Assembly (NCBI GenBank): GCA_026391675.1
Contig: JAPLDQ010000036.1
Location: 164,522 to 228,521 of the forward strand
DNA from: Bacteroidota bacterium
Lineage (GTDB): Bacteria > Bacteroidota > Bacteroidia > Bacteroidales > JACABE01
DNA: 64,000 nt
Direction of reading: 5' to 3'
Below the pieces are notes generated by a model, which was not told the origin of the DNA, did not search any database, and saw only the letters and a program-made list of their open reading frames with translations. Each line of letters starts with the position of its first letter. The stretch's first letter is position 1. Of the stretch, positions 14,617 through 19,564 are shown piece after piece. Position numbers and translations under genes: made by a program.

Positions 14617-16767
14617 ATGAAAATAAAAATATTTTTCGTTGCACTATTAATGTGCACGAGTGGATGGTTGTCCGGACAAAATAATAATCCTGACAGCACT
14701 AAAGTTATGAGGCTGGGAGAAGTAATTATTTCAGTTAACAGATTGCCTGTCATGTTAAAAACTAATCCCGGTTCAGTTTCTTTGGTTACACCTGATATGC
14801 TTTCTATTATGCCAAAAGGAATTGGTGCCGAAGAAGCATTACGTTTGGTCCCGGGCGTTCGTATTGACAATCAACACGATGGAGAGCGGGTTCATATTTC
14901 AATTCGTGGTCAGGGAATATTAACAGAACGCGGTTTACGGGGAATAGGTGTAATGATAGATGGCATAGTTTTAAATGATCCTTCAGGATTTGCACCCGAC
15001 TTATATGATATAGATTGGTCATGCATAAAAAAAATTGAAGTTTTACGCGGTCCAGCAGCAGGTTTATATGGAGGTAGCGGTGCTTCCGGAATATTAAATA
15101 TAACTACCAATAACGGAGGTTCAAAACCAATAGGAGGTGAGATTAGCCAAACCATTGGTTCAAACGGATTCAGAAAATCATTAATCCAACTGGATGGATC
15201 AAAAGACGCTGTTGATTATCGCATAAATTACTCACGTACTGATGGTAATGGATATCGTGATCATCAGGCTTTTTGGAGTAATAAACTGTATGAAAAAATC
15301 AACTTTCATCCTTCCAGTCAACTTTCAATCACACAAATTATCTCACACAGTGATTATTTTCAACAAAATCCTGAAGGCCTCAATTTAGGGCAATTCAATA
15401 ATTTGTTACAGGCAAATCCGGATGCTTGTCCGTTTAATGAATATCAAAAGACCAACCGCACTACAATAGGTTTAACAGGATCTTATAAAATTAATGATAT
15501 GCATGATTTTCAGTTTTCATCATTCCTGAGATTATGGAATTATAAAGAAACCAGCAATAAATGTGCTGAATACAGGAATTATACGGTTCCCGGACTTAGT
15601 GCCCAGTATAATTTACATTTTAATGCTGGAAAAACGAATAATCATATCAGTATAGGTACTGAATTTAAATGGCAAAAGATTGATATGTATAAATTGCAAA
15701 GCGCAGGCAATCCTTTGAGGGTAGAAAGTATTGATGAGACAAACATCGAAAATGATTCATTGCTTGCCAATCAGATAATTTCACAAAGCAGTGCAGCAGC
15801 ATTTATTTTGTATAAGTTCGGGATTGGAAAATTCAATTTTATGGGAAGTATACGTTATGATGGAATGAATAATGAACTGACAAATAAAATGATGGCTTCG
15901 GATACAGCTAAAACTTCACAAAACTATACAAAAGCAGCAGCCCGTTTGGGAGCAAGTTATTCTTTTATGGATGCGATAACTTTATTTGCAAACTGGAGTC
16001 AGGGTTTTATGCCACCTTCTACCGAAGAGCTTGCAAATAATCCTATTGGTTATAACGGATTTAATACACATCTGGTACCGGCAACGTCAAACTGTATTGA
16101 AATGGGTTCACGCGGTTTTTTTGGTGAAAAATTTTACTATGAAATTACAGGATTTATAATGAATACTGAAAATGATTTTTTCCGGTTTAAACAGAACGGA
16201 AGAGGGAATCAGGAAGTTTTTTACGGGAATGCTGGCAATAGCAAACGTTATGGAATTGAAGCATTTATTTCATACAAAATTATAAAAAACCTCAGTTTTC
16301 AGCTTGCCTATACTTATGCTGATTATAAATACACTTCAGCAAGCATTGATCCGGTGTATACTGACCCAACTTATGTTTTAACCACTCCTCCAACCAGCGG
16401 TCAATGGCTGCCGAATTCACCCAAACACCAGATTTATACTGAAGTTGTTTATGCAATTAATAAAAACTTTAAAATCAGTTTGGGTAATGAATACCAGTCA
16501 AAATGGGCAATTTATACCGATGCAAAAGCTTACAACGGTCTATTAGACCCGACAGTATACCAAAACTGGCAGGATGGATTTAATTTATTACACGCCCGCA
16601 TTTCATATAACTGGAAATTATGGGGTTTAAACGGAGAATGCAGTTTATTTGCACGTAATTTAACAGCTGAGAAATACATGGCTTTCACTGAACCTGATCC
16701 TGATGGTAATTCTTATCAACCCGGTCCTAAGAGAGAAATTTTCGGAACATTAAAAATTAAATTTTAG
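14617..16767 (+). CDS. TonB-dependent outer-membrane receptor
   Basis: A 716-residue receptor. A signal peptide (ends WLSGQ) is followed by the plug domain at about residues 30-150: LGEVIISVNR, ALRLVPGVRID, the IRG motif and KKIEVLRGPAAGLYGGSGASG. The rest is a 22-strand barrel ending in aromatic Phe (GTLKIKF). It imports a scarce nutrient across the outer membrane using TonB energy. The last part (LNGECSLFARNLTAEKY) is typical of the FecA/BtuB-like group. The ligand is unknown, although a metal chelate would fit the neighbouring small membrane protein and the metal transporter operon downstream. It lacks the SusC N-terminal carboxypeptidase-like domain. A strong terminator follows. Confidence 0.92.
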   Translation: MKIKIFFVALLMCTSGWLSGQNNNPDSTKVMRLGEVIISVNRLPVMLKTNPGSVSLVTPDMLSIMPKGIGAEEALRLVPGVRIDNQHDGERVHISIRGQGILTERGLRGIGVMIDGIVLNDPSGFAPDLYDIDWSCIKKIEVLRGPAAGLYGGSGASGILNITTNNGGSKPIGGEISQTIGSNGFRKSLIQLDGSKDAVDYRINYSRTDGNGYRDHQAFWSNKLYEKINFHPSSQLSITQIISHSDYFQQNPEGLNLGQFNNLLQANPDACPFNEYQKTNRTTIGLTGSYKINDMHDFQFSSFLRLWNYKETSNKCAEYRNYTVPGLSAQYNLHFNAGKTNNHISIGTEFKWQKIDMYKLQSAGNPLRVESIDETNIENDSLLANQIISQSSAAAFILYKFGIGKFNFMGSIRYDGMNNELTNKMMASDTAKTSQNYTKAAARLGASYSFMDAITLFANWSQGFMPPSTEELANNPIGYNGFNTHLVPATSNCIEMGSRGFFGEKFYYEITGFIMNTENDFFRFKQNGRGNQEVFYGNAGNSKRYGIEAFISYKIIKNLSFQLAYTYADYKYTSASIDPVYTDPTYVLTTPPTSGQWLPNSPKHQIYTEVVYAINKNFKISLGNEYQSKWAIYTDAKAYNGLLDPTVYQNWQDGFNLLHARISYNWKLWGLNGECSLFARNLTAEKYMAFTEPDPDGNSYQPGPKREIFGTLKIKF

Positions 16768-16807: not shown

Positions 16808-16849
16808 AATGTAACATACTTCAAAAATATTGCTGAAGTATGTTACATT
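16808..16849. terminator. Intrinsic terminator (16 bp perfect stem)
   Basis: AATGTAACATACTTCA at 16808-16823 and its exact complement at 16834-16849 form a 16 bp stem with a 10-base loop, followed by TTTCT. It ends the TonB receptor transcript and insulates the metal transporter operon. A perfect dyad of this length could also bind a dimeric regulator. Confidence 0.8.
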
Positions 16850-16898: not shown

Positions 16899-16906
16899 TA
16901 TTTTTG
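16899..16906 (+). promoter_or_regulatory. Minus-7 element of the MgtE-N/Nramp operon
   Basis: TATTTTTG matches TAnnTTTG. No good TTG is seen at minus 33. If used, transcription begins near 16912 and leaves a leader of about 124 bases before the ATG at 17036. Confidence 0.5.
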
Positions 16907-16911
16907 CACTG

Positions 16912-17035
16912 CAAATCAATATCACATTAAAATGGACGATGACCCTGCGAGAAAATATTTAATAAACCTGATATAGGGGGGTGACTTCGCCATTTGGCAT
17001 AACTCCTTTAATATCATTAAAAACAGGAGGTGCCT
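16912..17035 (+). ncRNA. Candidate structured 5' leader (metal-responsive?) of the transporter operon
   Basis: The leader is richer in G/C than its surroundings. It contains GACCCTGCG, then a run of six G at 16977, and GGGGT..ACTCC flanking an inner GCC-ATTT-GGC hairpin (about 16977-17006), so several helices can compete. It ends in a strong Shine-Dalgarno AGGAGG at 17025-17030, unusual in this genome. I could not match it to the yybP-ykoY manganese or M-box magnesium riboswitch consensus. Its position ahead of a metal-sensor and transporter pair makes a cis-regulatory RNA plausible. Confidence 0.35.
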
Positions 17036-18304
17036 ATGACATCTTTTACAACATTTTACTTAAGTCGCGTAATTGGCAAAAAAGTATTTGATGCCAAGGG
17101 CAAATGTATTGGCATTATCAAAGATTTACTTGTAAAAACAGAATTTTTAAACAATGCTGATGAACGGGCTATTGTTACCGGGATAAAATTAAGTTTTAAA
17201 GGTAAAATTACATATTATTCTTTTGAGCAATTTCAGATTGAGAAACGAAAAACGAAAATCAGAATCAGCTATAACCGATTAAAGGAATTGTCCGCTGAAG
17301 CTATTGAAAACAGTCTGTATCTTGTTGAAACCGTTCTTGATAAACAAATTGTTGATTTAAACGGTCGTAAACTTGTACGTGTAAACGATGTAAGATTGGT
17401 TACCGTGGCAAACGGAACTTTTGCACTGGCTGTTGATATTGGCATTGAAGGTTTATTGCGGAGAATTGGTATTGCCAAACCATTAAAATTCATACTTTCA
17501 GTTTTTAAAGCAAATATACCGGCAAAATTTATCCTTTGGGAAGACGTTGAAGCCATTGATTTTTCAAGCCGTAATATCAAGCTTTCAAAAAGCTATTCAA
17601 AATTACAAACCCTCCACCCTTCTGATTTAGCTGATATTATTGAAGAATTAGGCAGGAAATCGAGTGCCGAAGTCTTTTCATCATTGGACGAAGAAAGAGC
17701 AGCAGATGTATTGGAAGAACTCGAAGTTGAAACCCAGGTTCACATTATTGAAAGCCTTTCTATTGAAAAAGCAGCTGATGTCTTAGATAAAATGCCGGCT
17801 GATGAAGTTGCCGATATTCTGGATGCACTGGAAGATGAAAAAGCAGAATTGCTGTTGAATGAAATGGAAAAAGATACTTCTCAGGAAGTACGTGAATTGC
17901 TTGATTATCCTGACCATGCTGTTGGAAGTATTATGTCGACCGAAGTATTATCATTCAACGAAAACGCAACCATAGAAGAAGTGCTTAAATCATTACGAAC
18001 ACAGCAACCAGAAGCCGAAACCCTTTACAATCTATTTGTTGTTAATGAAACTGAAGAATTAGTTGCAACATTTTCCTTAAGAGATTTAGTAGTTACTGCT
18101 CCTGAAACTAAGATTTCAGAAATCATGAAACCTTCTCCTGTTCACTTGTACGATTATCAGGAGATTGATGATATTGCAGAATTTGTATCTAAATACAATA
18201 TGCTTGCCATACCCGTTGTGGACCGCGATAATATATTACAGGGCATGGTTGTAATTGATGATATTATTGATGATTTGATGGATAAAGGCAGAACGAATAA
18301 ATAA
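17036..18304 (+). CDS. PRC-barrel / MgtE N-terminal / CBS-domain protein without a membrane domain
   Basis: A 422-residue soluble protein. Residues about 5-170 hold two PRC-barrel-like units (GKKVFDAKGKCIGIIKD; KQIVDLNGRKLVRVNDV). Residues about 195-295 are the MgtE intracellular N domain (LHPSDLADIIEELG, KAADVLDKMPADEVADIL). Residues about 300-420 are a CBS pair (GSIMSTEVLSF, ISEIMKPSPVHLYDY, MLAIPVVDRDN). In MgtE these domains bind Mg2+ and close the channel, but the MgtE membrane domain is absent here. The gene is 12 bases ahead of an Nramp-related transporter, so it is probably that transporter's metal sensor or gate. I chose the ATG at 17036 over an in-frame GTG at 17030 because AGGAGG ends at 17030 and would overlap the GTG. 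Confidence 0.87.
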   Translation: MTSFTTFYLSRVIGKKVFDAKGKCIGIIKDLLVKTEFLNNADERAIVTGIKLSFKGKITYYSFEQFQIEKRKTKIRISYNRLKELSAEAIENSLYLVETVLDKQIVDLNGRKLVRVNDVRLVTVANGTFALAVDIGIEGLLRRIGIAKPLKFILSVFKANIPAKFILWEDVEAIDFSSRNIKLSKSYSKLQTLHPSDLADIIEELGRKSSAEVFSSLDEERAADVLEELEVETQVHIIESLSIEKAADVLDKMPADEVADILDALEDEKAELLLNEMEKDTSQEVRELLDYPDHAVGSIMSTEVLSFNENATIEEVLKSLRTQQPEAETLYNLFVVNETEELVATFSLRDLVVTAPETKISEIMKPSPVHLYDYQEIDDIAEFVSKYNMLAIPVVDRDNILQGMVVIDDIIDDLMDKGRTNK

Positions 18305-18316
18305 AGGAGGAAGCGT

Positions 18317-19564
18317 ATGATTTTAAAAAACAAAAAATCCTTTTTCCGTCAGCTGGCACTGTTTTTCGCCATATTAGGTCCGGGGATTATTACCGGAAGT
18401 GTGGATAACGATGCCGGCGGTATTACCACCTATTCTGTTGCCGGTGCAATATATGGCTATAATCTGTTGTGGACACTTATCCCATCATTTATTGTATTGA
18501 TTGTAATCCAGGAAATGAATGCCCGTATGGGTATTGTTACCGGTAAAGGTCTTGCCGACCTCATCCGCGAAAATGCCGGTGTAAGACTAACTTTTTTTAT
18601 CTTTTTAGGACTTTTGATTGCTGATATTGGCAATACAACTACAGAATTTGCCGGTGTTGCCGGAAGTATGGAGGTATTTGGAGTCAGTAAATACATATCG
18701 GTTCCATTAGTCGCACTTATGGTGTGGATACTGGTGGTAAAAGGAACCTATAAAATTGCAGAGCGGATATTTTTAATATTCAGTGTTTCGCTGCTGATGT
18801 ATGTGGTTTCAGCCATTATGGGAAAACCACACTGGAGTGAAATCGGACATGCAGTTATTCATCCCCAAATGAAAGTGAATGCCAAAAGCCTTGCCATGGT
18901 CATTGGGATTATCGGTACTACCATCGCGCCATGGATGCTGTTTTATATGCAGTCTTCCGTAACTGAAAAAGGCCTGAAAATGAAACACTATAAATACCTT
19001 ATTATTGATATTATAGTGGGTTGTGTGGCCACTGTTGTTGTTGCTTTCTTTATCATAGTAGCCTGTGCATCAACACTTCATGTAAATGGTGTTCAGATCA
19101 ATGAAGCCAAAGATGCTGCTCTGGCATTACAGCCGTTGGCCGGTGCTTTTGCATCTCAGGTATTTGCTTTCGGCCTTTTTATAGCTTCTGTTTTTTCAGC
19201 CACTATTTTACCATTGGCTACTGCATTCTATATCAGCGAAGCTTTTGGTTTCGAAGCCGGTATTGATAAGAAATGGGATGAAGCCAAGGAGTTTTATACC
19301 CTTTATACCGGTATTATTGCAATTGCAGCTACCATTATCTTATTTCCAAATGCACCATTGATATTGATTTCATTGTGGTCGCAGGTTCTGAATGGTATGT
19401 TTTTACCCGTGGTTCTTATTTGTATGATTATCATTGTCAATAACAAAAAAATTATGGGCAAATATGTCAATAAACCGATTAACAATATTATTGGTGTGAC
19501 AACCATATCGATATTAATCATTTTAACTGTTATGCTTTTTGTACTTCCCATATTTCAGAAATAA
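18317..19564 (+). CDS. Nramp-family divalent metal transporter, NRMT-like (possibly Mg2+)
   Basis: A 415-residue protein with about 11 transmembrane helices and the Nramp/LeuT fold. In classic Mn/Fe Nramps the metal is bound by DPGN in helix 1 and MPH in helix 6. Here helix 1 reads GSVDNDAGG and helix 6 reads GTTIAPWMLFYMQSS, so the metal-binding Met is replaced by Ala and the His by Trp. Loss of that soft Met ligand is a feature of the Nramp-related magnesium transporters (NRMTs). Linkage to an MgtE-N/CBS protein, whose relatives sense Mg2+, supports a Mg2+ role. A strong Shine-Dalgarno (AAAGGAGG at about 18303-18310) precedes the ATG. I therefore avoid the symbol mntH. Confidence 0.85.
   Translation: MILKNKKSFFRQLALFFAILGPGIITGSVDNDAGGITTYSVAGAIYGYNLLWTLIPSFIVLIVIQEMNARMGIVTGKGLADLIRENAGVRLTFFIFLGLLIADIGNTTTEFAGVAGSMEVFGVSKYISVPLVALMVWILVVKGTYKIAERIFLIFSVSLLMYVVSAIMGKPHWSEIGHAVIHPQMKVNAKSLAMVIGIIGTTIAPWMLFYMQSSVTEKGLKMKHYKYLIIDIIVGCVATVVVAFFIIVACASTLHVNGVQINEAKDAALALQPLAGAFASQVFAFGLFIASVFSATILPLATAFYISEAFGFEAGIDKKWDEAKEFYTLYTGIIAIAATIILFPNAPLILISLWSQVLNGMFLPVVLICMIIIVNNKKIMGKYVNKPINNIIGVTTISILIILTVMLFVLPIFQK

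Follow-up and report, generated by a model that had tools for sequence, protein, structure and literature searches.

On the forward strand of a 64,000-nucleotide stretch of Bacteroidota DNA (contig JAPLDQ010000036.1, order Bacteroidales), which as a whole we call the window, lie two adjoining genes, one for a free sensor protein of the MgtE type and one for an Nramp-related magnesium transporter (NRMT), and ahead of both lies a short leader open reading frame (ORF) with which most of this report is concerned. The whole feature begins at about 16899, upstream of position 17036, from which an earlier note on this DNA had counted it.

The transporter gene (18317..19564, with AGGAGG ahead of it at 18305..18310) encodes a match to the Nramp family in Pfam (PF01566, E 1.9e-95), and ranked by E-value its closest solved structure is EleNRMT (7QIA, E 2e-109), with MntH next at 5e-24. 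The earlier note had pointed to altered metal motifs in this protein, and they are indeed there: D32-A-G-G35 (DxxG; 18410..18421) replaces DPGN in the first transmembrane helix (TM1), and T201-T-I-A204-P-W206 (TxxA; 18917..18934) replaces AxxMPH in TM6. Both align exactly with 7QIA (NDAGG with NDAGG, GTTIAPWM with GTTIAPWM), and because they are invariant across relatives (TM1 reads SVDNDAGGI in 96 of 96, TM6 reads GTT[IV]APWM in all 93 of the 96 that are covered there), they are not a matter of chance. The combination of DxxG in TM1 with TxxA/T in TM6 is described in PMC8806188 as the signature of NRMTs, and the window's transporter carries it in D32-G35 and T201-A204. The proton-linked histidines of TM6b are gone, W206 and M211 aligning with a Trp and an Asn of EleNRMT. 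As an NRMT the protein would further be expected to carry Mg2+ but not Ca2+, and to do so uncoupled from H+. The draft genome (98% complete) has a second Nramp, a canonical one with DPGN and MPH, so the Nramp of the window is the odd one of two; the same draft holds one CorA, and a gene for an MgtE pore was not found in it.

The gene in front of the transporter (17036..18304) encodes, as had also been claimed, a PRC barrel, an MgtE_N domain and two CBS domains in one protein without the MgtE pore domain: Pfam reports MgtE_N at 7e-26, CBS at 7.5e-15 in two stretches and PRC at 1.4e-4 (22.2 bits against a cut-off of 21.2), with no match in it to the pore domain PF01769. Its start is the ATG at 17036, an alternative GTG at 17030 falling inside the Shine-Dalgarno (SD) sequence. 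Behind its N-terminal PRC barrel, the protein resembles the cytoplasmic domain of MgtE as known from the structures 2YVY and 2YVX (2YVY at 3e-35), and its AlphaFold2 model has middling confidence scores (mean pLDDT 70.9, pTM 0.46). When the MgtE residues that PMC5882242 names for sites Mg4 to Mg7 are carried over to 15 aligned sensors, the positions of E59, D95 and D247 are acidic in all 15 (D224, D260 and D409 in the window), D91 (D256) is acidic in 12 and N in 3, the equivalent of D226 is Asn in all 15, and the D250 position holds D, E or F. Since most of the site acids are kept and the D226 equivalent is Asn, Mg2+ binding by the sensor is plausible, probably in a form altered relative to MgtE. 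The sensor is thus like the MgtE channel in its MgtE_N and CBS domains and most of its Mg-site acids, and unlike it in being a separate protein without the pore domain and in that Asn.

The pairing of an NRMT with a free MgtE fragment has been in the literature since 2014 and is therefore no novelty. The name NrmT comes from Shin 2014 (PMC4072509), where a gene for the MgtE fragment was noted in most members of the group and the fragment was suggested to act in feedback regulation or as a chaperone; Ramanadane 2022 (PMC8806188) reported the structure of EleNRMT and its transport of both Mg2+ and Mn2+. The window's pair shares with these known systems (CabNRMT, EleNRMT) the DxxG-TxxA site, the replacement of the first TM6b His by Trp and the neighbouring gene like the MgtE cytoplasmic domain. 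It differs from them in having a leader-peptide switch, no M-box having been found here, and in the PRC barrel of its sensor, a term that does not occur in the main text of Shin 2014.

What, then, stands in front of the pair? The leader ORF, MDDDPARKYLINLI followed by its stop (14 codons, 16932..16976), lies behind the box TATTTTTG at 16899..16906, which we call Bacteroidota-type on a -7 consensus that we take to be TAnnTTTG; TTTG stands 24-33 nt ahead of the leader ATG in 24 of 28 loci of the order. The comparison draws on 115 sensor loci, of which 35 come from genomes (among them that of the window) and 80 are the best GTDB records of a longer list. Counting loci that agree over the 100 bases nearest the gene as one leaves 103, and 99 of these offer 110 nt or more of upstream sequence. 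An ATG-initiated MDxxP frame is present at -93 to -126 in 90 of these 99, and a fixed rule finds the leader in 88 of 97 forward strands, 0 of 97 reverse strands and 0 of 95 far-upstream regions. The 90 leaders were selected for D or E at position 2 and P at position 5. Position 2 proves to be D in every one, and among features that played no part in the selection, D or E occupies position 3 in 82 of the 90 and A6 is present in 72. Conservation falls off within codons, from 1.76 and 1.48 to 0.45 bits over bases 1, 2 and 3 of codon 3 and from 1.57 and 0.78 to 0.20 bits in codon 4 (the wobble base of codon 5, a position chosen as Pro, keeps 0.80 bits), which suggests that the frame is translated. 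Past codon 6 the peptides diverge, and their length ranges from 9 to 23. A short frame with early acidic and proline codons ahead of a magnesium transporter is, of course, what mgtL and mgtQ also are.

The end of this frame takes part in an RNA structure of three segments. Segment 1 (16969..16982) is the end of the leader ORF with its TAG stop and would serve as anti-anti-SD; segment 2 (16996..17016) is the anti-SD, able to pair with segment 1 or with the SD; and segment 3 (17025..17034), AGGAGGTG, is the SD of the sensor gene with the bases that follow it, predicted to be closed in a 2:3 hairpin. With the SD masked in the prediction, 16969-16982 can pair with 17002-17016 in a 14-bp helix (duplex -14.6 kcal/mol), and the alternative pairing in the window joins 16996-17007 to 17025-17034. 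A better guide than any one fold is whether the segments of a leader fit one another better than they fit those of its relatives, and we compared each leader's own segments with segments swapped between leaders over 20000 permutations. In 60 sensor leaders, no two of them more than 80% identical, 1:2 pairing has a value of -16.8 kcal/mol for own and -11.8 for swapped segments (z -12.3), and 2:3 pairing has a z of -10.1, against -0.1 for the control pair 1:3. In 19 leaders of CorA, MgtE and MgtA-like genes the corresponding z values are -6.3, -5.7 and -0.8, and the observed 1:2 and 2:3 values were reached by none of the 20000 permutations. Two mutually exclusive structures tied to a leader, another feature of the mgtL and mgtQ type, are therefore present here in the covariation of 1:2 and 2:3 and its absence from 1:3. 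In 101 of 109 leaders the SD is predicted to be less accessible once a ribosome occupies the leader stop than when the leader is free; the free state is the more accessible by over 0.2 in 29 of the 109 and the less accessible by over 0.2 in none. The mean difference over 79 leaders is 0.123, whereas ten sets in which segment 1 had been shuffled gave -0.003 to 0.022. Nine of the 28 non-sensor leaders, in which the rule found no SD (seven CorA with an intervening small ORF, the CorA of L177 and a porin), are outside both the accessibility and the covariation sets.

Other kinds of control element were sought in the same region and set aside. Matches of the window leader to known riboswitches are all below gathering scores and none is an M-box, for which there is no covariance-model match between 16700 and 17300 at E up to 5; among 20 relatives, a tRNA is the only match at gathering scores. 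A consensus scan gave no intrinsic terminator within the leader, the sole terminator-like hairpin (16808-16849) being upstream of it, and no sigma-70 promoter was found there, the Bacteroidota-type box being present instead.

The leader recurs elsewhere. A pattern made of the promoter box and the leader start, run over 393 genomes of the order, matched 88 of them in 97 rows (35 for the reversed-pattern control, counted by hand), and of 95 distinct matches 25 stand before a sensor, 19 before CorA, 7 before MgtE, 1 before an MgtA-like P-type ATPase and 1 before an OprB porin. Downstream genes were classed by phmmer against one or two representatives of each class, and Pfam confirmed ten of the assignments (six CorA, two MgtE, the P-type ATPase and the porin); the MgtA-like label of the ATPase is based on its cation-ATPase domains and its leader setting. 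In one genome (G165), NRMT and sensor are on different contigs (L346 and L027), each with an MDxxP leader of its own. A single predicted leader serves, then, four importer types: NRMT with its sensor, CorA, MgtE and the MgtA-like ATPase. For the window, this lends independent support to the view that its NRMT clade serves magnesium, and together with the NRMT signature and EleNRMT as nearest solved relative it supports the earlier note's proposal of a Mg2+ importer.

In a phylum-wide sample, the pattern occurs in 31 of 345 genomes at 32 places, and among the 30 of these places that were read, judged by eye, only the window's own has a magnesium context. The strict leader therefore seems not to extend beyond this order and its close neighbours.

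Two further observations belong beside these matches. The porin (L160, 2429-3811, genome G068) follows the leader MDEGPATRLLTVSMER and is possibly an outer-membrane route for magnesium; the NRMT sensor of that genome is preceded by the leader as well. At seven CorA loci (L151, L153, L154, L155, L157, L159, L161) the distance from leader start to gene is 161-269 nt, within which a small ORF of 31-45 codons can be read; a hairpin might control the start of that ORF instead.

We think it probable that the two genes form a magnesium-import operon and that a translational attenuator with a leader peptide controls it. Comparison among relatives shows the leader ORF, coding selection on it, the two exclusive covarying helices and the association with four importer types; the transcription start, Mg2+ as the signal, ribosome abortion as the step that senses it, translation as the main output and feedback by the sensor are what we infer. 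The mRNA would begin just ahead of the leader ORF, with a peptide starting Met-Asp-acidic-x-Pro. Given enough Mg2+, the ribosome would reach the leader stop and cover segment 1, leaving segment 2 free to close segment 3, the ribosome-binding site (RBS) of the sensor gene, and the operon would be off. At low Mg2+, the acidic and proline-bearing nascent chain would destabilise the ribosome within the first codons, so that it drops off or stalls; with the ribosome lost early, segment 1 would be free to pair with segment 2, segment 3 would open, and the sensor and the co-transcribed NRMT would be made. NRMT would then import Mg2+ without energy coupling of its own, as PMC8806188 reports for EleNRMT, and once cytosolic Mg2+ was restored the MgtE-like sensor would probably provide feedback at the level of protein.

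Precedents for leaders linked to magnesium exist in mgtL, mgtQ and corL, and we propose ribosome abortion at low Mg2+ because the leader start resembles those of mgtL and mgtQ, because importers follow and because a stem hides the next RBS. In mgtL, early acidic and proline residues are reported to destabilise ribosomes, and low Mg2+ to worsen leader translation (PMC11282234, PMC11552253); the mgtL of mgtA in Salmonella and E. coli is like the window's leader in its short frame, its early acidic and proline codons, its exclusive RNA folds and in poor leader translation meaning on, and it differs in lineage, peptide and transporters and in its reported output, Rho-dependent transcription termination, where here the fold covers an RBS. 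In mgtQ of Salmonella mgtB, Asp2 and Glu5 are reported to be required and an RBS-hiding stem to be controlled (PMC8092293). Asp2 with early Pro and Glu, and translation control by such a stem, are thus common ground, but mgtQ lies between two genes and loss of its start codon is reported to lower mgtB, whereas here a leader that goes untranslated should leave the RBS open, since it is segment 1 itself that pairs with the anti-SD. With the M-box riboswitch the likeness is one of deployment, a single regulatory RNA before several unrelated families of magnesium importer; the window's leader gives no M-box match and, as we propose, acts through a translated peptide.

Several results weigh against this reading and deserve to be seen together. 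Codons 2 and 6 are conserved in their wobble bases too (GAC in 84 of 90, GCG in 69 of 90), which could mean that selection on the RNA or on codon choice maintains part of the leader start. Nine of the 99 sensor loci are without a strict MDxxP; four are near-misses (two MEEGSS, one MDEGEPN, one with ATA instead of ATG before DDDPAD) and five have no leader at all, three of the five being labelled Verrucomicrobia or Deltaproteobacteria. Of the 95 pattern matches, 42 precede neither importer, sensor nor porin, and we take these as chance (21 are inside long ORFs, 13 have no following ORF and 8 precede other genes). Coverage of the importer families is partial: the leader precedes none of 24 high-scoring CorA (the evaluable ones among 30 loci; reverse-strand control 1), 10 of 40 lower-scoring CorA hand-picked from plus-strand matches, under a relaxed acidic rule (MDEGP, MDEVP, MDDYHP, MDDSNP and similar; control 0; 4 of 40 by strict MDxxP), and at least 4 of 30 MgtE, a figure that has no control and is a lower bound, the ORF picked in L279, L304 and L305 probably being another gene. 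In the window itself, the plain fold barely beats shuffles (z -1.8) and the SD is predicted to be mostly closed in both states (0.11 and 0.06), so the switch would there depend on folding order during transcription; as this difference is small, we place the weight on the comparative result and not on the single fold. The reported transport properties of the NRMT relatives, to which we return below, also pull the other way.

There is also a tension in that, according to PMC9976891, Bacteroidia ribosomes generally ignore SD sequences, their anti-SD being bound by bS21, bS18 and bS6. If so, closure of the SD may take effect by way of the start region. An SD-like motif is nevertheless present ahead of the sensor in 96 of 99 loci, and AGGAG or GGAGG precedes NRMT in 39 of 96 cases and other flanking ORFs in 21 of 167, a comparison that is not strict because the span read before NRMT was wider. 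Either the motif persists because the stem needs it, or translation of these mRNAs falls to SD-competent ribosomes without bS21, which PMC9976891 reports to act on strong SDs in Flavobacterium, and the unusually strong SDs may tie the leader system to such ribosomes. Strong SD motifs like those at 17025-17032 and 18305-18310 are rare in the window, where 4 of the 46 ORFs with 150 codons or more have one.

Might control lie in the proteins instead, the free MgtE domain closing NRMT and the leader being incidental? We regard this as a serious proposal, one against which we would nonetheless lean slightly. The two genes keep company closely, NRMT coming next after the sensor in 96 of 103 unique loci (at 2 the contig stops short; of the 5 without an adjoining transporter, one, L079, has just 376 nt to read), the gating acids of MgtE are largely kept, and feedback is what Shin 2014 (PMC4072509) proposed. 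Against it, co-expression of the fragment in that study's Acidobacterium capsulatum system is reported to have given no better Mg rescue than the transporter by itself, the D226 position is N throughout the aligned sensors, and the conservation of the leader is too strong for an incidental one. Three loci (L007, L022, L029) have sensor and leader with no adjoining NRMT, and elsewhere in their draft genomes (G003, G219 and G024, 95-98% complete) no NRMT was found either, only Nramps of canonical type at 24-26% identity; the sensor may, because of these genomes, act on more than NRMT. Gating of this kind could coexist with the leader switch.

Two variants leave the logic of the RNA in place. It is doubtful, though the geometry would allow it, that the ribosome arrests near Pro5 instead of dropping off: segment 1 begins 37 nt past the first base of the leader, beyond the footprint of a ribosome at codon 5, and a stalled ribosome would likewise leave segment 1 free. 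The acidic early chain of mgtL, however, is reported to dissociate the ribosome, with no stall unless EttA is there (PMC11282234, PMC11552253). That the leader senses the supply of proline or aspartate, or a ribosome factor (EF-P, an EttA-like ABC-F protein, bL31), we consider unlikely; Pro5 and the acidic codons are the conserved part, and EttA is reported to act on mgtL and L31 on mgtQ (PMC8092293), but the leader stands before four unrelated types of magnesium importer and this suggests that Mg2+ is the need being served, although such supplies or factors could still modulate it. Lastly, a transporter mainly for Mn2+ or another divalent ion despite its NRMT motif is quite improbable, for although the A. 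capsulatum pair is reported to have favoured Mn, with full rescue of a Mn-transport mutant and rescue of Mg-dependent growth only at low millimolar Mg (PMC4072509), and EleNRMT carries Mn2+ too (PMC8806188), the genome has its separate canonical Nramp and the leader is common to CorA, MgtE and the MgtA-like ATPase.

The attenuator, if we have read it correctly, is one instance of something larger, and on balance we incline towards a magnesium regulon of the Bacteroidales in which one recurrent leader peptide, MD[D/E]xP, would let Mg2+-dependent failure of the ribosome open the next RBS, before four importer types and at least one outer-membrane porin, filling for this lineage a role like that of the M-box. 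What would be new in the switch is the lineage that has it, its peptide, the layout of its RNA and the variety of transporters that it precedes, while its kind, a ribosome-destabilising leader, is known; among the matches listed in the open-licence papers searched, none describes a leader like this one in Bacteroidota or how Bacteroidales sense magnesium. Should the proposal be true, a single peptide switch before four unrelated importer families would amount to Mg2+ regulation across a whole lineage, genes of unknown role, the OprB porin in L160 among them, would become candidate magnesium genes, and the sensing of Mg2+ by way of ribosome stability would extend outside the enterobacteria.

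Two smaller observations complete the picture. The loci L049, L053 and L113 have sensor and NRMT without the leader, on contigs labelled Verrucomicrobia or Deltaproteobacteria and with a sensor identity of 56-70%, and gene transfer or misbinned contigs are possible explanations. Upstream of the operon in the window lies a gene for a TonB-dependent receptor (14617-16767), from which the hairpin at 16808-16849 separates it.

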